Below, piece after piece: positions 2,511 to 15,542 of a stretch of DNA of 22,117 nucleotides. The stretch's first letter is position 1; each line of letters opens with the position of its first letter. The notes beneath the pieces are model-generated. The model did no database searches. It was given only the letters and a program-made list of their open reading frames with translations, and was not told the origin of the DNA. Source of the stretch: a virus; IMG/VR virus record IMGVR_UViG_3300009706_000071, positions 1 through 22,117 of that record; one strand, given 5' to 3'. The position numbers were made by a program, and so were the translations under genes.

Positions 2511-3977
2511 ATGAGAGTAGTAAATGATATTGTAATTGTAGGTGGTGGAACATCAGGTTGGTTAAGTGCGGCTTACTTGTCTAATAATCTTGATTGTAGA
2601 GTTACAATCATTGACAAAGAGGTTGGCAATCCTATTGGAGTTGGTGAAGCTACACTTTTGAACTTTAAAGAATTTCTTCATGCTTGTAATTTACCTATAG
2701 AAAGTTGGTTTAATCCAATTTCAGCAACATATAAATCAGGTGGTTTATTTAGGGATTGGAACGAAATAGGAAAAGAAATTTGGCATCCTTTTGCTATGAA
2801 CTATTGGGTAGAAAATAAAAAATATTATACTGAGAAATTAAGTGGTATTACAAAATATGATTTATGGACGGACTGTCAAAATTTAGATTTCAAAAAATAT
2901 GGTACAAGGTCTTATGATTTGTGTGTATTGCATAAAAAAATAAATGTAGAAGCAAACCAAGCATATCATGTTGATTGCGGCAAACTTGTTACATATATTA
3001 AAGAGGCTTTAAAATATAAAGTAAATTTCATTCAAAGTGAAATGACAAAAATTGAAAGAGTTAGTGATAATGGAAATATTAAAAGCCTAACTTTAAAGAA
3101 TGGAAATGTGGTCAAGGGTGATTTGTTTATTGATTGTTCAGGTTTTTTAGAACTATTAAAAAATAAACCAATTAGAAATAATTTAAAAAATCGTTTAATA
3201 TGCGATACAGCAGTATGTGGTAGATTAGACAAAGACGAAAATATAAAACCTTACGCTGATTTCACAGCAAAAGAAAGTGGTTGGATTTGGGAAATTCCTA
3301 CACAAGACAGGCTAGGAACAGGATATGTGTTTAATAAAAGCCTACTAGACGTTGATGACGCCATGTTACAACTAAGTAACCATCATAAAGGTAGTATTAA
3401 ACCTGAAGATATGAGGATGTTAGATTGGAAGCCTTTTTATAATGAGAACTTTTGGCATGAAAATGTAGTGTCTATAGGACTTTCATCAGGGTTTATTGAG
3501 CCATTAGAAAGTACAGGGATTGCTTTAATTATGGAAGGAATTTATCAATTAACCCATCAAATTAGAGAAAATTCATACAACTATAAAAATGTTGAAATAT
3601 ATAATCACATAATGAGCGAATTCTTTGAATCAAGTGTTGATTTTGTAGGTTCACATTACACTCTTACAAAAAGAACAGACCCTTTTTGGCAAGAAGCAAA
3701 CTCTTATATAAAGATTTCGGATAGGCAAAAACATTATATGGACGTATTAAAAAATCCTAATGTGAGTGTTGGGTGTTCTATAAATAGCTATTCGTTTCAA
3801 GGTAGTATGAACTGGACTACTTGGTTAATTCAACAAGGATGTGAGGTTGCTAAAAGAAATCTTGACGATAGTTTAAGAATATTAGAAAGAGAAAACAATG
3901 AAAATAATCTACATAACCCTATGTATGGTACAGATAATGCAGAATATATTAAACATTTAAATCAACTTTGGACATGA
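2511..3977 (+). CDS. Flavin-dependent (tryptophan-type) halogenase
   Basis: 488 aa, close to the usual length for this family. FADH2-dependent halogenases make hypohalous acid, pass it to an active-site lysine and halogenate an electron-rich substrate. Visible motifs are: the FAD-binding VGGGTSGWLSAAYL (residues 10-23), GVGEATLLNF (43-52), a lysine K75 (SATYKSGG) in the position of the PrnA catalytic lysine, the diagnostic W-I-W-E-I-P (258-263) that separates halogenases from monooxygenases, and SSGFIEPLESTGI (325-337) carrying the Glu/Ser pair. All key residues are present, so it looks functional. Bases 3001-3060 hold only 14 G/C of 60, lower than the flanking secreted genes, which hints at separate ancestry. 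Phage halogenases are known from marine cyanophages. The substrate here is unknown, and tryptophan should not be assumed. Confidence 0.93.
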   Translation: MRVVNDIVIVGGGTSGWLSAAYLSNNLDCRVTIIDKEVGNPIGVGEATLLNFKEFLHACNLPIESWFNPISATYKSGGLFRDWNEIGKEIWHPFAMNYWVENKKYYTEKLSGITKYDLWTDCQNLDFKKYGTRSYDLCVLHKKINVEANQAYHVDCGKLVTYIKEALKYKVNFIQSEMTKIERVSDNGNIKSLTLKNGNVVKGDLFIDCSGFLELLKNKPIRNNLKNRLICDTAVCGRLDKDENIKPYADFTAKESGWIWEIPTQDRLGTGYVFNKSLLDVDDAMLQLSNHHKGSIKPEDMRMLDWKPFYNENFWHENVVSIGLSSGFIEPLESTGIALIMEGIYQLTHQIRENSYNYKNVEIYNHIMSEFFESSVDFVGSHYTLTKRTDPFWQEANSYIKISDRQKHYMDVLKNPNVSVGCSINSYSFQGSMNWTTWLIQQGCEVAKRNLDDSLRILERENNENNLHNPMYGTDNAEYIKHLNQLWT

Positions 3978-8281: not shown

Positions 8282-8533
8282 TTAAATAGACTTTAACGCT
8301 AACTTTAACATTTCGTCTTCGTAAGGTAACAATTTTTCTGCTTTAGGTTGTCTTCCTCTAGGCTTGCCGCCTTTTGCTCTGTTGTACGGTTCAAATACTT
8401 TAGCTCTATCCTTGTGTCTTTTTAAACGATTCCTAGCGGCTGATTCGGTTACGCCTAATGCTTGTGCAACCTCACGTGCAGTAACTATCGTTCCGTCAGA
8501 TAACTCATACGTCAGGGTTCTTCGCTTACCCAT
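8282..8533 (-). CDS. Small helix-turn-helix DNA-binding protein
   Basis: 83 aa, MGKRRTLTYELSDGTIV then VTAREVAQALGVTESAARNRLKRH (about 17-40), a good HTH, followed by a basic tail (RAKGGKPRGRQPKAEK). Start fixed at 8533: the ATG overlaps the stop of the upstream 38-aa gene as TAATG. The longer frame to 8608 has no ribosome site and runs through that gene. It is the last gene of the leftward operon and probably a small regulator or nucleoid-type protein. Target unknown; the 17-bp repeats just beyond its stop are an obvious site to test. Confidence 0.78.
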   Translation of the reverse strand: MGKRRTLTYELSDGTIVTAREVAQALGVTESAARNRLKRHKDRAKVFEPYNRAKGGKPRGRQPKAEKLLPYEDEMLKLALKSI

Positions 8534-8649
8534 TATTGTATGTACTGCTCGTACTGAGAGAACCATAAAGCTATGAATAGCGCTGAACCCGTAATAACCC
8601 AAATACATATATGTTTAATTATCTTAGCGGTTGTTATTAATGATTTCAT
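8533..8649 (-). CDS. 38-aa single-span membrane protein
   Basis: Reads MKSLITTAKIIKHICIWVIT, then GSALFIALWF and a short polar tail SQYEQYIQ. One membrane span covers about residues 13-31. A proper ribosome site (ggaga, six bases upstream) precedes the ATG at 8649, which itself overlaps the previous stop as ATGA. The stop overlaps the next start as TAATG. The junctions on both sides make a real gene likely despite its size. Function unknown. Confidence 0.68.
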   Translation of the reverse strand: MKSLITTAKIIKHICIWVITGSALFIALWFSQYEQYIQ

Positions 8650-10482: not shown

Positions 10483-10856
10483 TATATAATCTCCTTGTCA
10501 AGTCTTTTATCCATATTTTTCGTACCAAGATATTGATACTTTGCCCAAGTACATGGTGTACCAAATTTGTTAGTGCCTTTTATTATTTGAGTAGGCTCAA
10601 CAAACTGATGACCTAATTTTTTTAAATCAAATATCACAGCCGCTATTCTTGTGATGCTGTATGTGTCTTCAGCTTCACGATGTGTAATACTTCCTTTAGT
10701 CCTAAGGTAAGATAAGACCTGTTCTTTTTGGTTACTGATATTATTCTCCTTAATTTGCATAGCTTCTAAGATTTCTGTTTCAATGTATTCACCACCTTCA
10801 AAATCATAGTGGTCTTTGTTAGCGTAAGTTCTTTCTACTCCATTAATGTCAGCCAT
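10482..10856 (-). CDS. Winged-helix DNA-binding protein (HTH_39-like)
   Basis: 124 aa. Residues about 42-85, QKEQVLSYLRTKGSITHREAEDTYSITRIAAVIFDLKKLGHQF, match the small winged-helix family seen in many phage early operons (helix, SIT-start recognition turn, RIAAxIFDL recognition helix, wing). The N-terminal 40 residues are acidic. Overlaps both neighbours by one base (TAATG). Likely a DNA-binding accessory or regulator for the recombination operon. No catalytic residues. Confidence 0.78.
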   Translation of the reverse strand: MADINGVERTYANKDHYDFEGGEYIETEILEAMQIKENNISNQKEQVLSYLRTKGSITHREAEDTYSITRIAAVIFDLKKLGHQFVEPTQIIKGTNKFGTPCTWAKYQYLGTKNMDKRLDKEII

Positions 10857-11188
10857 TATTTCGCTCCTAGTTTTAGTTCAAAAGAAAGTTCATCTTGTAG
10901 CACATCTTTAATCTGCGCTGTAAAGTCATAGTCAAAGGTTTCTTCATAGTCTTGATGCTTGCCATAGACTTGAGCATAAAAACTGTAATATCGAAGATTT
11001 ACCACCTTGTTGATAGCATCAGCTAGTGTAAGAACATCCTGTACATTGACAGTTTGATTAATATCGTCAACTAAATGCTCAACCTCCATAAGAATATTAT
11101 CAACCTCAATCAAACAATTATCTCTAGCAGAATCGAAGTTAGATTCCCATTCAGTTTGAAAGTCATCATCTTGTTTAAAATTTTCCAT
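10856..11188 (-). CDS. Acidic helical hypothetical protein
   Basis: 110 aa, very rich in Asp, Glu, Asn and Gln, with predicted long helices (ARDNCLIEVDNILMEVEHLVDDINQTV and LTLADAINKVVNLRYYSFYAQVYG). First gene after a strong promoter (11233-11261), with ggag eight bases before the ATG. Not recognised. The strong acidity could mean a DNA mimic or a protein-binding factor, which is inference. Confidence 0.72.
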   Translation of the reverse strand: MENFKQDDDFQTEWESNFDSARDNCLIEVDNILMEVEHLVDDINQTVNVQDVLTLADAINKVVNLRYYSFYAQVYGKHQDYEETFDYDFTAQIKDVLQDELSFELKLGAK

Positions 11189-11209: not shown

Positions 11210-11226
11210 GTGATTAATTCAATCAC
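11210..11226. promoter_or_regulatory. 17-bp dyad downstream of the leftward promoter
   Basis: gtgattaattcaatcac: arms gtgatt (11210-11215) and aatcac (11221-11226) are perfect complements around five bases. It lies just downstream of the -10 of the 11233-11261 promoter, in the leader, where an operator or a leader hairpin would act. It is not a CRP site because the spacing differs. Confidence 0.5.
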
Positions 11227-11232
11227 GAAGTG

Positions 11233-11261
11233 AGTATATCATAAACGATATATAAAGTCAA
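11233..11261 (-). promoter_or_regulatory. Sigma70-type promoter for the recombination operon
   Basis: Read leftward: TTGACT (11261-11256), 17-base spacer, TATACT (11238-11233). Both hexamers are one base from consensus and the spacing is ideal. It would drive the genes from 11188 down to 8282. The -35 box overlaps the stop of the upstream 95-aa gene. Confidence 0.8.
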
Positions 11262-11832: not shown

Positions 11833-12023
11833 TATTTTTTCCCCTTAATTATCCAAGCATTTTTTTCTACATCTGAATGACATCCATCACATTCAATTGC
11901 AGACCAAGAAAAATGATAAACAGTAGAACTTTTATCACATACTGGACAGATAATTTGTTTACCATCAACTCCAGCTCTAGTATATTTGTTAACGTATTTA
12001 GTATCGTAAGTAATTGTGTGCAT
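11832..12023 (-). CDS. Small zinc-ribbon protein
   Basis: 63 aa. Cysteines at 26, 29, 45 and 48 (CPVC and CDGC) form a clean C-x2-C, C-x2-C zinc ribbon with aromatic residues between (VYHFSWSAIE). This fold commonly binds DNA, RNA or proteins in early phage genes, and similar mini-ribbons occur in Lar/DUF restriction-alleviation groups, although this link is weak. The ribosome site (aggaga) is clear. Confidence 0.78.
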   Translation of the reverse strand: MHTITYDTKYVNKYTRAGVDGKQIICPVCDKSSTVYHFSWSAIECDGCHSDVEKNAWIIKGKK

Positions 12024-12041
12024 TGTATCTCCTAGGTAGTT

Positions 12042-12058
12042 GGGGGGAGTTACCCCCC
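12042..12058. other. G6/C6 hairpin in an intergenic spacer
   Basis: Six G (12042-12047), a five-base loop and six C (12053-12058) form a perfect GC stem in the 41-base gap upstream of the zinc-ribbon gene. On the leftward transcript no T-run follows, so it is not an ordinary terminator. It may protect or cut the message, or block ribosome entry. Confidence 0.5.
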
Positions 12059-12064
12059 GGATAA

Positions 12065-12337
12065 TTAAATTAGTGCGCCTGTCTTAATATCAATAGTAAA
12101 TTCTGCGGCATCAAAAAAAGAATCACGATTGTCTGAACTGTGATGACCTTCTAATGAATAGCTGTCATCTAAATATTTGTAAAGAACTTCGTCTTTGTCA
12201 CCTTCAACATGGTTGTCTAAAAAAGCAATAATTTCAATTGGACTTTTATGCCATTTAGGTGCAAGAGTTAAATCAGTATTTTCATTAAAAGTTTTTATAG
12301 TACATTTAACGCCTATGTAGTGGTCTAAATTTTTCAT
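12065..12337 (-). CDS. Hypothetical protein, first gene of the 12382 operon
   Basis: 90 aa, acidic, with an N-terminal strand region (HYIGVKCTIKTF), WHKSPIEIIAFLDNHVEGD, and a His/Asp/Ser-rich segment (SLEGHHSSDNRDSFFDAAEF). No family recognised. Start supported by an aggagat ribosome site and the promoter just upstream. Confidence 0.72.
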   Translation of the reverse strand: MKNLDHYIGVKCTIKTFNENTDLTLAPKWHKSPIEIIAFLDNHVEGDKDEVLYKYLDDSYSLEGHHSSDNRDSFFDAAEFTIDIKTGALI

Positions 12338-12381
12338 TGTATCTCCTAGATTTAAGTTAAAGTTATGTTGTTGTTGAGAGT

Positions 12382-12409
12382 ATTATATCACAATTGAGGT
12401 ACTTGTCAA
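12382..12409 (-). promoter_or_regulatory. Strong sigma70 promoter
   Basis: Read leftward: TTGACA (12409-12404), 16-base spacer, TATAAT (12387-12382). Both hexamers are exact consensus. It sits between a terminator and the 90-aa gene and starts a new leftward unit. Confidence 0.85.
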
Positions 12410-12440
12410 GCTTTATTTAATTAAACAGAACAAATAAGTT

Positions 12441-12473
12441 AAAAAAAACCCCCGGGAGAATAAGTCCGGGGGG
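12441..12473 (-). terminator. Intrinsic terminator after the DUF932 gene
   Basis: ccccccgg-type arms at 12449-12455 and 12466-12472 form a 7-bp GC stem with a ten-base loop. Read leftward, the stem is followed at once by eight T (12448-12441). It ends the transcript of the 12501-13301 gene and isolates it from the next operon. Confidence 0.88.
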
Positions 12474-12500
12474 AAACGTTACTTACGTTTATTGGAGATG

Positions 12501-13301
12501 TTATGCTACAAGCAACTCATTAAGCATAGGAATAGCTTTTCTTACCTTAGCCTCACGATTGTATATAGTAGCAACTTTGTTAGCCTCATTCTTAAATTTA
12601 GCGTGGCTAGACCAATCAGTTAAAGTATTAAAGACTGCCCAAAGATTCTTACCCATCTCATTAACATATTTTAGGTAAGTCTCTTCAAGTAGTAACTCAA
12701 GTCTATCACTTTTGCCAGCAACTCTCTGAAAAATCTTAGTAGCTTCTGCATTAGTAACTGGAGACTGTGGGTATTTTTTCCAAAGCTCAGTATTTTTTGT
12801 ATAGACTATAAGAGCTGTCTCAAGTTTAGCAACTGCAACGTCAACGTCTAAGCTTCTTGTGTGTTTAGCACTATACTCAGAGAATGCATCAGCAATTACT
12901 TGACCGTTCATACAAGCAAGTCTAACAGCTCCTACCATAGACATAAACTTCCAAGAGCCATCGTAAGAGTTAAGCACCATAATTTTAAGGTCAACAAAGT
13001 CACCTGTGTCAATCTCAATCCTGTGAGCTGGGAAAGTATAAGTAACAATAGTCTTAGCACCCATGTGAGACTGTTGGATGTCTTTAGTCATGTCAGTCCT
13101 GTCTAAATCAGAAGCTAAGATAACTTCGTGAAACTGAGGCATGATGTCAGCATTCTGAACTAGGTTATAGTTCTTGCCTACTACTGCGATTGGAGTGCCA
13201 TCGTCATTTACAATAGCTTTGTGTGTTGGTACTAACATTGCGTCACCACCAGTAAATAAAACTCTCTCTTCTACTACGTTATATTCATTTACTAATTCCA
13301 T
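12501..13301 (-). CDS. DUF932 phage/plasmid-like protein
   Basis: 266 aa. The conserved DUF932 centre is plain: VLNSYDGSWKFMSMVGAVRLACMNGQVI (about 110-137), preceded by the THKAIVNDDGTPIAVVGKNYNLVQN segment near the N-terminus and followed by a helical C-terminal half (KLETALIVYTKN, LLLEETYLKYVNEMGKNLWAVFNTLTDW). These proteins are common on plasmids and phages; a link to DNA metabolism or anti-restriction is often guessed but not proven. It has its own promoter and a strong terminator, so it is an isolated transcription unit facing away from the structured RNA region. Confidence 0.88.
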   Translation of the reverse strand: MELVNEYNVVEERVLFTGGDAMLVPTHKAIVNDDGTPIAVVGKNYNLVQNADIMPQFHEVILASDLDRTDMTKDIQQSHMGAKTIVTYTFPAHRIEIDTGDFVDLKIMVLNSYDGSWKFMSMVGAVRLACMNGQVIADAFSEYSAKHTRSLDVDVAVAKLETALIVYTKNTELWKKYPQSPVTNAEATKIFQRVAGKSDRLELLLEETYLKYVNEMGKNLWAVFNTLTDWSSHAKFKNEANKVATIYNREAKVRKAIPMLNELLVA

Positions 13302-13342
13302 CTGTGTATCTCCTATTAAGTTAAAAGTGCCATTTGTTTCTC

Positions 13343-13357
13343 AATGACGTAGTCATT
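13343..13357. promoter_or_regulatory. 15-bp palindrome at the DUF932 promoter
   Basis: aatgac gta gtcatt, perfect six-base arms around a three-base centre (13343-13357). It overlaps the -10 box and start point of the leftward promoter, where a repressor would block RNA polymerase. Operator role is inferred from position. Confidence 0.55.
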
Positions 13358-13384
13358 ATATCAGATTAGATACGTTCTGTGTAA
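13355..13384 (-). promoter_or_regulatory. Leftward promoter of the DUF932 gene
   Basis: Read leftward: TATAAT at 13360-13355 is exact consensus. The best -35 is TTACAC (13384-13379) with an 18-base spacer, which is moderate. It lies about 55 bases upstream of the DUF932 start. Confidence 0.65.
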
Positions 13385-13411
13385 TTAAATAGAAAAATAA
13401 ATTGAAATAGT

Positions 13412-13440
13412 TTGACCTAGATTTAATCTACGGGTATGAT
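13412..13440 (+). promoter_or_regulatory. Rightward promoter of the structured RNA, with internal operator
   Basis: TTGACC (13412-13417), 17-base spacer, TATGAT (13435-13440). The spacer starts with a perfect 13-bp palindrome, tagatt-t-aatcta (13418-13430), exactly where a repressor bound between the boxes would block transcription. Transcription would start near 13447, at the 5' edge of the folded region. Confidence 0.7.
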
Positions 13441-13445
13441 TTGTG

Positions 13446-13990
13446 TTCTTGGTTTAGAGTTATTTAAGAGATTAGATAGCAAAAATGCCTAGAGTGATTG
13501 AAGCTCTAAGCATTTTCTAAACTGGTATGTTTGGCTACCGTTCTATGAAAGATTATACCATTTTCAGTTCAGAAGGCAACTATCAGGATACGACTGTAGA
13601 TATGTCTGACTTCGGTTTCACTCACTACAGTAAAAAAAAGAGATTCAGCTATGTGTTCCAAGAAGCTGTTGATTGATGTTTAGATAAGAACCTTTATGTT
13701 GGTAACCACCTCGGAGGCTAAGAAATCTAAGCGCAGAGTGCAGAAGGCTGAGTACCTATTACAAGGTAGCGATGACTCTGACCTGATTAGTTGTAATGGT
13801 TTCAGGCATACGGATAATACTGTGAAGGACTTATACCGATGACAATCTCTAGTTTAGTTTAGGCTACTCTAGGGATTTCTTCGCACCGAAACTCCCAGTT
13901 CAGGAATTACCCGATAAGTTAAGAGCTTTAAAAAAAAGGGATTTATCCCTCTGCTTTACGGAAGTAAGTCGCTGAAAGCGAAACTAAAAG
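13446..13990 (+). ncRNA. Large structured RNA candidate, about 550 nt
   Basis: No open frame of 60 codons lies in this span, yet it is full of complementary pairs. Helices seen by eye: 13446-13452/13658-13664 (long-range 5' domain), 13452-13458/13516-13522, 13482-13488/13510-13516 capped by agag/ctct, 13523-13528/13555-13560, 13593-13599/13625-13631 enclosing a c(UUCG)g loop, 13678-13685/13725-13732, 13734-13739/13775-13780 enclosing 13753-13757/13764-13768, 13782-13786/13802-13806, 13811-13817/13831-13838 with one bulge, 13872-13879/13888-13896 with one bulge, 13937-13941/13946-13950, 13956-13959/13964-13967 with a GGAA loop, 13970-13973/13977-13980. G-U pairs and UUCG/GNRA loops favour the + strand, as does the promoter at 13412. 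Size and phage setting recall the giant phage RNAs GOLLD and ROOL, but I cannot assign it. It could also contain a replication origin. Confidence 0.68.
13930..13950 (-). terminator. Possible leftward terminator inside the RNA region
   Basis: The 5-bp stem 13937-13941/13946-13950 with a four-base loop is followed, read leftward, by eight T (13937-13930). It could stop antisense transcription, or may simply be one helix of the + strand RNA. The stem is short. Confidence 0.35.
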
Positions 13991-14000
13991 TTAAACAAAC

Positions 14001-14028
14001 TAAACATAGTTATCTAAGATGATATAAT
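14001..14028 (+). promoter_or_regulatory. Extended -10 promoter for the rightward gene set
   Basis: TATAAT at 14023-14028 preceded by TG-a (14020-14022) makes an extended -10. The -35 is weak (TAAACA at 14001-14006, 16-base spacer). It would start transcription near 14035, some 20 bases before the next ATG. Confidence 0.6.
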
Positions 14029-14054
14029 TAAATCTTTTTCAATATACTATTCTT

Positions 14055-14264
14055 ATGAAGAAAGCAATCTATTATCATTCAATCCCAGCAGAAATTAAAA
14101 GGTTAGGTATTACACAGAAAGAATGTGCTACTTTACTTGGATGTTCTCTGTCCGGTTTAACCCATCGTATTGCCGCAAACAAACAACAACTACATTGGGC
14201 AATTTATGGAGTCTCAAATTATTTAGGAGCTGAAGAAAACCTTCAAAGAAATGTCGAAGGATGA
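14055..14264 (+). CDS. Small Cro-like helix-turn-helix protein
   Basis: 69 aa. GITQKECATLLGCSLSGLTHRIAANKQQ (about 18-45) is a helix-turn-helix, with short flanking helices as in Cro/C1-type proteins or packaging regulators. No ribosome site precedes the ATG, which lies about 20 bases after the predicted start of transcription, so translation may be inefficient. Being first behind a promoter next to operator palindromes, it is a good candidate to regulate the divergent region; this is inference. Confidence 0.72.
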   Translation: MKKAIYYHSIPAEIKRLGITQKECATLLGCSLSGLTHRIAANKQQLHWAIYGVSNYLGAEENLQRNVEG

Positions 14265-14424
14265 GGTAGCTGAGACTATTCATTCTTTAATGTCATTGCT
14301 AAGTAAGATTGAAGACAGAAAATTAAAGGGTGAACTTGAAGACCAAATTATTGCATTGTGTGACCAACTTAAATTTACTATGATTATAGATAGAGTTAAC
14401 GAGAAAAAAGCTAATGAAAAATGA
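14251..14424 (+). CDS. 57-aa helical hypothetical protein
   Basis: Reads MSKDEVAETIHSLMSLLSKI, then EDRKLKGELEDQIIALCDQL and KFTMIIDRVNEKKANEK. It is helical and charged. It starts inside the preceding gene (14-base overlap) and ends 11 bases inside the next (14414), so it fills what would otherwise be a 150-base gap. No good ribosome site; coupling is likely. Function unknown. Confidence 0.65.
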   Translation: MSKDEVAETIHSLMSLLSKIEDRKLKGELEDQIIALCDQLKFTMIIDRVNEKKANEK

Positions 14425-14779
14425 TGAACACCTAGTTCAAAAAGCTATCTGTGAGTATTTAGATATGCGGAAGATTTTTTATTTTGCTATTCCGAATGGT
14501 GGTAAGCGCAGTAAATCTGAAGCTGGTAAGTTTAGAGCAGAAGGGGTGAAAAGTGGCATCCCCGACCTCTGTCTTCTCATGTCAGGAATTGCATTTTTTT
14601 TAGAAGTCAAGAGACCAAAAACTGATAGCAACCCGGCTGGAAGGTTGACAGATAATCAAAAAATTATGATTGAAAAGTTAGAGGATGCTGGCTCAGATAC
14701 TGCTGTGGTATATTGTGTAGCAGATGTCATTGGACAATTAATAGATTGGGGATTTAATGAAACAAAACGCAATAACTAA
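14414..14779 (+). CDS. VRR-NUC domain nuclease
   Basis: 121 aa, the size of stand-alone phage VRR-NUC proteins, which are PD-(D/E)xK nucleases linked to branched-DNA (Holliday junction) cleavage. Visible elements: E5 and the helix HLVQKAICEYLDMR, the family motif AIPNGGKRSKSEAGKFRAEGVKSGIPD with G48-x-P-D51, the E64-V-K66 pair (FFLEVKRPK) and Q82 (DNQK). All metal-binding residues are in place. It overlaps both neighbours and begins a run of nuclease-type genes before the terminase. Confidence 0.9.
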   Translation: MKNDEHLVQKAICEYLDMRKIFYFAIPNGGKRSKSEAGKFRAEGVKSGIPDLCLLMSGIAFFLEVKRPKTDSNPAGRLTDNQKIMIEKLEDAGSDTAVVYCVADVIGQLIDWGFNETKRNN

Positions 14780-15104
14780 ATCAGCTCGTCACAAAGCATG
14801 TACCTTTCGCTCTGATGTCTGTGACTCAGGTGTTAATAATGAGAACGTGGTATTCTGTCATGAAAACGTTTCAGGTGTTGGAATTAAAGCTAAAGATAGT
14901 CATGGTAATGACATAGGTTTTTACGGTTGTCATGCATGTCATGCGCTGTATGACACATTAGACCATCCATACTACAAGCCGCACTTTATTAAAGAGATGG
15001 CTCAGTTTGCTATAACTAGAACCAAGAGACAGTTAGTCAGGTCTTTATTGGTTGATGAGTATTATTCCGAGTCAGCTTCACCACCTAGAACTCCTTTTGA
15101 CTAA
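14757..15104 (+). CDS. DUF1364 (YbcO-like) zinc-binding nuclease-type protein
   Basis: 115 aa. The opening ITKSARHKACTFRSDVC, followed by GVGIKAKDSHGND and FYGCHACHALYDTLDH, is the DUF1364 pattern found in lambdoid ybcO-type genes near NinB and Holliday-junction functions. Cysteines at 15, 22, 58 and 61 with nearby histidines can bind zinc, and an HNH-like nuclease role has been suggested for the family. It overlaps the VRR-NUC gene by 23 bases. Called with good confidence as a family, low for the exact activity. Confidence 0.8.
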   Translation: MKQNAITKSARHKACTFRSDVCDSGVNNENVVFCHENVSGVGIKAKDSHGNDIGFYGCHACHALYDTLDHPYYKPHFIKEMAQFAITRTKRQLVRSLLVDEYYSESASPPRTPFD

Positions 15105-15542
15105 ATGAATACTTTTAAGGAGGATTTAGAAGACGGACACAATGCAGAACAAGATGTTCTAAAGTTATTACAGACCCAATATCCTAGTGCTGTTATCATT
15201 CCGGGTTACTGTAAAGAAATGGATATATACGTACCGGAGATACACAAACGTTATGAGGTTAAGAAAGATTTTAAGAGTAAGTACACAGGAAATTTAGTTG
15301 TAGAGATTGCAATGTATGGTAAGCCTTCAGCGTTAATAACGAGTCAGGCTGAGACATGGGTTTTTGTTACACATACTAAATATATTTTTATAGCAAGAGA
15401 TAGAATTAAAGATTGCATCATAGAAAACAACTTACAATTTAAGACGTTTGTTGGTAATGGGGATACTGAGGCAAAAGATGCGTATCTAATTAAAGAGGAT
15501 TTATTATTACCTTATTCTTACAAAATTTTAAATTATGAGTGA
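15105..15542 (+). CDS. PD-(D/E)xK-like protein, second nuclease candidate
   Basis: 145 aa. E15, D40 (KEMDIYVPE) and E51-V-K53 (RYEVKKDFKSK) give the spacing of a PD-(D/E)xK nuclease core, with HNAEQDVLKLLQ as the first helix and NLVVEIAMYG as the next strand. ATG follows the previous stop directly (0 nt), with no separate ribosome site. It resembles small phage restriction-endonuclease-like proteins. Substrate unknown. A second nuclease fold beside VRR-NUC is noteworthy. Confidence 0.68.
   Translation: MNTFKEDLEDGHNAEQDVLKLLQTQYPSAVIIPGYCKEMDIYVPEIHKRYEVKKDFKSKYTGNLVVEIAMYGKPSALITSQAETWVFVTHTKYIFIARDRIKDCIIENNLQFKTFVGNGDTEAKDAYLIKEDLLLPYSYKILNYE

Follow-up and report, generated by a model that had tools for sequence, protein, structure and literature searches.

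Lambdoid phages control their Cro/CI regions with a small HTH regulator that reads symmetric sites at its own and at leftward promoters. In phages of the HK022 type, the put RNA lies just downstream of a promoter and ahead of an operon, where it acts in antitermination. To our knowledge, only few large structured RNAs are without an assigned function. GOLLD and ROOL are often, but not always, located near tRNA islands. Both are large RNAs of phages and prophages that form RNA-only cages and whose function is unknown (PMC12286853).

The locus analysed here lies in an IMG/VR virus record of 22,117 bases and 37% G+C, which was examined over its whole length and is referred to as the window. A gap of 753 bases separates the leftward DUF932 gene (12501-13301, minus strand, 266 aa; Pfam PF06067 at E 5e-19, phrog_1221 at E 2e-35) from the rightward gene of a 69-aa regulator with a predicted lambda-repressor/XRE-like fold, termed HTH69 (14055-14264, plus strand). 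Within the gap, a leftward promoter (TACACA-17-TATAAT with TG before the -10; 13355-13383, minus strand) and a rightward promoter at the 5′ edge of a conserved RNA (TTGACC-17-TATGAT; 13412-13440, plus strand) each match the consensus at 10 of 12 bases. A 15-bp palindrome, AATGAC-gta-GTCATT (AATGACgtaGTCATT, 13343-13357), extends from the edge of the leftward -10 to just past the inferred transcription start, and a 13-bp palindrome (TAGATTtAATCTA, 13418-13430) lies in the spacer of the rightward promoter. When 13302-13450 was scanned exhaustively for inverted repeats whose arms are 6 bp long and whose centre is 0-3 nt, exactly these two were identified. The original prediction had located both promoter-like sites and both palindromes correctly. 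However, two or more such palindromes also arise in 4.4% of dinucleotide shuffles of this 149-nt stretch, palindromes of this type are rarer in the whole window than in shuffles (17 versus 31), and promoter-like matches in 12000-15500 show no excess (12 versus 12.6 in shuffles). Palindromes and promoter matches in a single sequence are thus weak evidence by themselves, and conservation must carry the claim.

Relatives were collected with a DUF932 search, which returned 65 loci and was complemented by additional loci found with DNA patterns from the gap, and with a search for the HTH family, which returned 87 loci, 80 of them retained. A nucleotide profile of the gap located an element of ~550 nt in 71 contigs including the window (~13447-13990, plus strand, ends approximate), with five copies cut at a contig end. 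Additional copies were found in three contigs (L194, L197, L198) and more diverged ones in nine (L215, L217, L218, L220-L224, L230), bringing the total to 83 virus contigs, many of which are near-duplicates; six more HTH loci (L161, L169, L171, L202, L206, L207) show only the 3′ part of the element, at a contig end. Dropping copies that were at least 95% alike left 33 of 62 uncut copies as the non-redundant set (alignment A1).

Cultured phages (INPHARED) gave no match to window positions 12501-14264 or to the divergent L224 region by blastn, nor to HTH69 by tblastn. Genomes of bacteria and archaea had no match to a single strict, exact pattern of the RNA, and an alignment search for HTH69 confirmed none of 191 stretches. 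The RNA was likewise unmatched by nhmmer at E up to 10 in Paracoccus KLEP18-1 and Sulfitobacter pCB2047-A, both of which are among the phages whose terminases matched best. The group is one of uncultured tailed phages that are probably virulent, a lifestyle hinted at by the absence of an integrase from 12 of 12 records searched, which may be incomplete.

The RNAalifold consensus of the 33 aligned copies describes a multi-helix RNA with invariant loops. It comprises 70 pairs, of which 29 have changed on both sides in at least one sequence. Standard pairs are formed in 96.9% of the consensus cells, compared to 88.4% in shuffled alignments and 28 to 43% in a control in which the partners were slid by 1 to 3 columns. 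The number of cells changed on both sides is 192 (shuffled mean 51.5, at most 27 when slid), and that of pairs changed on both sides is 29 (17.4 and at most 13, respectively), while pair types, one of five measures, amount to 69 versus 64.9 in shuffles, 32 of 500 of which reach 69. The best pair of helix 13679-13683/13727-13731 shows five pair types and that of helix 13594-13598/13626-13630 shows four. A strict, home-made covariation test, in which substitutions were reshuffled on a neighbour-joining tree, was applied to a core set of 41 of 78 uncut copies that were less than 97% alike. Only two base pairs reached E <1 (E ~0), one in each of these two helices. With the full-length set, several of the top pairs were linked segments rather than base pairs, and such linked non-pairing columns indicate that covariation is partly due to relatedness or exchanged segments. 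Segments of the RNA indeed look exchanged among relatives as cassettes, such as the 5′ part of L122, L077 and L126, and the insert of helix 7 is absent in L025, L031, L072, L118, L126 and others; cassette exchange and an optional internal arm would inflate covariation between unpaired columns. The nine contigs with diverged copies form a clade in which the helix 7 arm is far longer and the stretch ahead of the HTH gene is longer as well. Taken together, the structure is well supported at the level of helices, with some inflation by relatedness and apparent segment exchange. The window copy by itself folds no better than its shuffles (z -1.59, 8 of 100 as good).

One might argue that the conserved stretch encodes small proteins instead of an RNA, given that the window contains frames of 49 and 48 aa. 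These frames are, however, open in only 1 and 6 of the 33 loci, length differences are spread across all three phases, and pairs change in a compensating manner, leaving this reading with hardly any credibility. A coding stretch was rejected because reading frames are not kept across the 33 loci. Covariance models of Rfam 15 gave no match at gathering score in the window and eight further loci, and only two matches, far below gathering scores, at E up to 10 over 13250-14100. No tRNA or tmRNA was detected in the window or, in the case of 11 scanned relatives, in any of the 11 loci. With no matches in the loci scanned, assignment of the RNA to tRNA, tmRNA or an Rfam 15 family was rejected as well. 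Neither Rfam nor the literature searched, in which subscription journals were thinly covered, contained a description of this RNA. A conserved stretch of ~130 nt lies to the left of the RNA in the L042 clade (L042 ~2939-3090, plus strand; also L094, L071, L111, L102, L030 and L025); it is hairpin-rich by eye and may be a second small RNA, and no tRNA was found in the scanned loci of this clade (L042, L071, L102).

In 71 of 71 plus 12 of 12, i.e. 83 of 83, contigs, the RNA is followed by a same-strand gene for a relative of HTH69, which starts 29 to 197 nt past the end of the profile in the 65 contigs measured. In the reverse direction, all 64 loci of the HTH69 family that have 650 nt or more of upstream sequence carry the RNA, and 11 of the 16 loci with less than 650 nt show part of it. 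Whereas these HTH loci were found by protein alone, the seed alignment was derived from RNA-bearing loci, and the two directions are therefore only partly independent. The linkage may also reflect in part a general synteny of related phages, because nuclease, NinB and terminase genes follow too. DUF932 is visible upstream of the RNA in 35 of 65 contigs, within 500 nt in four of these 35 (the window, L101, L021 and L023) and farther away in 31; it is not the constant partner of the RNA.

At the promoter of the RNA, TATNAT is found near the RNA start in 33 of 33 non-redundant loci, which is a weak test of conservation as the script took the nearest occurrence, and TTGACC or TTGCAA is present 17 nt upstream of it in 13 of the 33. 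The 13-bp palindrome in the spacer is perfect in only four of these loci (L001, which is the window, L002, L077 and L122), and two further loci retain four of its six pairs. The original prediction had regarded this palindrome as a regulator site and had named in advance, as speaking against it, the outcome found here, namely a palindrome that is not conserved while the promoter -10 persists. The palindrome is most likely due to chance.

The 15-bp palindrome, by contrast, is conserved in relatives through compensating changes of its arms, so that the adverse outcome named in the original prediction was not seen here. Leftward promoters often share a layout in which the -10 is followed by two successive base triplets, a third triplet complementary to the first, ATTGAG and, farther downstream, an arm that base-pairs with the palindrome's right half, and promoters of this layout precede different leftward genes in relatives. 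In the window, the leftward mRNA is predicted to carry a 5′ hairpin (13329-13348, minus strand) that begins at the inferred transcription start, its GTCATT/AATGGC arms forming six of six pairs including one G-U. When leftward sites were anchored on the -10 and a GAG-like motif, 45 distinct ones were obtained, a few of which are probably not promoters. The arms are complementary in 37 of them, compared to a mean of 15.8 and a maximum of 26 in 5,000 permutations of the right arms, and 33 sites have the full 5′ hairpin, versus 8.6% with shuffled tails. In an unanchored set of promoter-plus-ribosome-site candidates, complementary arms are present in 51 of 196 leftward but 0 of 122 rightward candidates, and the hairpin is present in 55 and four, respectively. 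Starting from 46 distinct hairpin-bearing leftward sites, a complementary left arm was found in 31 (permuted mean 8.4, highest 18 in 5,000). The upstream half of the palindrome (e.g. 13352-13354) precedes the transcription start inferred from the spacing to the -10, yet co-varies with the transcribed half.

The sequence of the arms is not fixed, with GAC, TAC, AAC, GGC and CAC found at different promoters. Within single contigs, arms differ in 25 of the 28 contigs with at least two modules, several of these contigs being near-duplicates, and in 24 of 27 if four spurious-looking ATA/TAT sites are left out. In the window itself, one module has GAC/GTC arms (13343-13357) and another CAC/GTG arms (11224-11232). 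The latter belongs to a second complete leftward module (11210-11250, minus strand) ahead of ORF 10856-11188, composed of a candidate operator (TATCGTTTATGATA, 11237-11250), the -10 TATACT, a CAC-ttc-GTG palindrome and a GTGATT/AATCAC hairpin. The module is absent from the leftward promoters beside the RNA in L122, L077, L103 and L076 and was not recognised in the L042 clade. A perfect TTGACA-16-TATAAT with an extended -10 at 12382-12409 (minus strand), ahead of a 90-aa ORF (12065-12337), is also without the palindrome module.

Since its arms differ among the promoters of one genome, the 15-bp palindrome is no fixed protein site, and arms that change together are explained by base pairing but not by a protein reading a fixed sequence. 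It would rather represent a separate, structure-based module of leftward promoters, the right half of which would start the leftward mRNA and fold into a 5′ hairpin, with the left half mirroring the right at the DNA level. The symmetry of the palindrome, its position at the inferred transcription start and its strand specificity would also suit a sequence-specific operator bound by one dimeric repressor at all leftward promoters, but the variable arms and, in particular, their divergence within 25 of 28 multi-module contigs make such an operator improbable. The same divergence speaks against two sequence-specific regulators, one per palindrome. It also bears on the complete original proposal, in which two palindromic operators, one at each divergent promoter, and two regulators constitute a switch between expression of DUF932 and of the RNA. 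The two palindromes and the two promoter matches do exist, two such palindromes are expected by chance in just 4.4% of shuffles, and the 15-bp palindrome is conserved. Yet the 13-bp palindrome is perfect in just 4 of 33 loci, the 15-bp element is general to leftward promoters and varies in its arms among those of one genome, and DUF932 and the RNA are within 500 nt of each other in only four of the 35 contigs showing both. We consider this switch very unlikely.

Comparative sequence analysis instead points to TATC-N6-GATA as a better operator candidate. The window contains four exact copies, against an expectation of 0.30, and the motif overlaps the -10 at three promoters, those of DUF932 (TATCTAATCTGATA, 13359-13372, minus strand), of HTH69 (TATCTAAGATGATA, 14011-14024, plus strand, with the -10 at 14023-14028) and of the leftward promoter at 11233-11250 (site 11237-11250). 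Judged by sequence, the HTH69 gene's own promoter and a leftward promoter of the window thus have a candidate symmetric site in common, which the RNA promoter (13412-13440) lacks. The fourth copy (1984-1997) sits inside ORF 1932-2510, which encodes a 2OG-Fe(II) oxygenase-family protein (E 3e-9) and adjoins a gene for a tryptophan-halogenase-family protein (2511-3977, Pfam E 9e-93). An 18-base form, TATCTNNNNTGATATAAT, is found mismatch-free in the window only at 13355-13372 and 14011-14028, and matches with up to three mismatches are not in excess (8 versus 6.4 expected).

In relatives, the exact operator is present in 23 of 31 distinct HTH promoter segments but in only four of the 21 distinct left promoters nearest the RNA, the rest having variants or none. 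HTH and left promoters of the same phage are nevertheless more alike than permuted pairs (8.25 versus 7.36 of 16 positions identical, p 0.0008, 28 pairs, not corrected for phylogeny). Five distinct HTH proteins (L089, L098, L113, L118, L121) have KSTMSH or RSTLNH in place of SLSGLTH in the predicted recognition helix, and the promoters of their genes contain TGTWCGATATTTGATA instead of TATC-N6-GATA. As a counter-case, L073 and L086 keep the SLSGLTH helix although their HTH promoters are without the exact operator. The AlphaFold2 model of HTH69 has four helices at a mean pLDDT of 84, and the top Foldseek matches include lambda-repressor-like proteins, HipB, Aca1, P22 c2 and 434 Cro, the best at E 0.42 and none at E <= 0.001. 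Pfam at E <= 0.1 assigns HTH_3 to 20 and Cro to three of 35 family members, the window protein being unmatched. From the operator pattern, the joint change of helix and operator and the fold, we infer that HTH69 is the likely reader of TATC-N6-GATA. The suggestion that the 69-aa HTH protein is a regulator at this locus has therefore gained support, but the sites through which it would act are those at 13359-13372 and 14011-14024 and not the palindromes. The other HTH-like protein named in the original prediction (8282-8608, minus strand) shows a weak match to the Ren-like exclusion family phrog_16568 (E 8e-6). The locus provides a worked example of how an operator candidate can be told from neighbouring palindromes by comparative sequence.

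We favour, as the probable explanation of the locus as a whole, a Cro-like HTH69 acting on TATC-N6-GATA next to an independently made RNA, a structure-based 15-bp module and a chance 13-bp palindrome. In this explanation, for which transcription starts, HTH69 binding, repression, RNA independence and lifestyle are all deduced from sequence, HTH69 would bind the operators that overlap the -10 boxes at its own gene and at leftward early promoters, among them that of DUF932. Like Cro in lambdoid phages, HTH69 would, as it accumulates, repress both itself and the leftward genes, while the operator-free RNA promoter would keep making the ~550-nt RNA, which the HTH69 gene follows, independently of the regulator.

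Testable roles for the RNA are suggested by its partner gene with the associated operators, and we lean, slightly, towards a role in cis tied to transcription into the HTH69 operon over a role in trans. As a cis leader, the RNA might work as an attenuator or might modify RNA polymerase in the manner of put-like antitermination. This tentative possibility fits the linkage, with a same-strand HTH69 relative after the RNA in 83 of 83 contigs and the RNA present in 64 of 64 loci in the reverse direction. It also fits the 3′ end of the RNA, where the final 120 nt together with the next 45 nt lack a terminator-like site in all 33 of 33 loci. Within the RNA (window ~13845-13880), a conserved hairpin with a short U-rich run behind it, flagged by a terminator scan in at least 17 of 33 loci, is also consistent with it. 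On the other hand, a conserved promoter of HTH69 itself lies between the RNA and the gene, known put RNAs are far smaller than this RNA, and the internal U tract is weak, with a stem of ~4 G-C pairs; moreover, the window copy was not flagged, and a second scan shows no plus-strand terminators there.

Slightly more doubtful is a role in trans, in which the RNA would be an independent ornate RNA comparable to GOLLD and ROOL and would serve a host or phage process, possibly as an RNA-only assembly. The large size, the multi-helix structure with invariant loops, the phage location and the separate promoter of HTH69 would agree with such a role, for which GOLLD and ROOL set a precedent as large phage and prophage RNAs (PMC12286853). 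Against it, the RNA has no Rfam match, neither the window nor any of the 11 relatives scanned has a tRNA, unlike the frequent setting of GOLLD and ROOL, and the RNA was never found apart from HTH69 in the copies examined. Returning to a role in cis, its most far-reaching version, a new class of large ornate RNAs that is tied to a Cro-like regulator and controls the transition from early to late transcription via RNA polymerase, is speculative and in our view unlikely. If it were true, phage timing would run on a 550-nt RNA machine in addition to repressor proteins. Another class of large RNAs offers a direct handle if, as here, natural variants number in the tens, helices are clear and the genetic partner is constant.

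Compared with known systems, the locus resembles the Cro/CI regions of lambda, P22 and 434 in that HTH69 is predicted to be lambda-repressor-like and that symmetric sites lie over the -10 of its own and of leftward promoters. It differs in that all 12 of the 12 records searched lacked a recognisable integrase, that no CI-type repressor was noticed, that the similarity of HTH69 to Cro is marginal (best Foldseek E 0.42, window protein without Pfam match) and that a ~550-nt structured RNA is placed between the divergent promoters and the regulator gene. The anti-CRISPR-associated Aca autoregulators are small HTH proteins reading palindromic DNA, as proposed for HTH69, and Aca1 is among both the profile and the fold matches of HTH69, although with weak scores (E 0.14 and 0.63). 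Like the put RNA of the HK022 type, the RNA lies just downstream of a promoter and ahead of an operon, but is much larger. It shares with GOLLD and ROOL a phage location, a large size and an elaborate structure (PMC12286853), and differs from them in having no Rfam match, no tRNA neighbours and, in the copies examined, a fixed link to one regulator gene. The regulator and its operators are of a known kind; the RNA is the part of interest.
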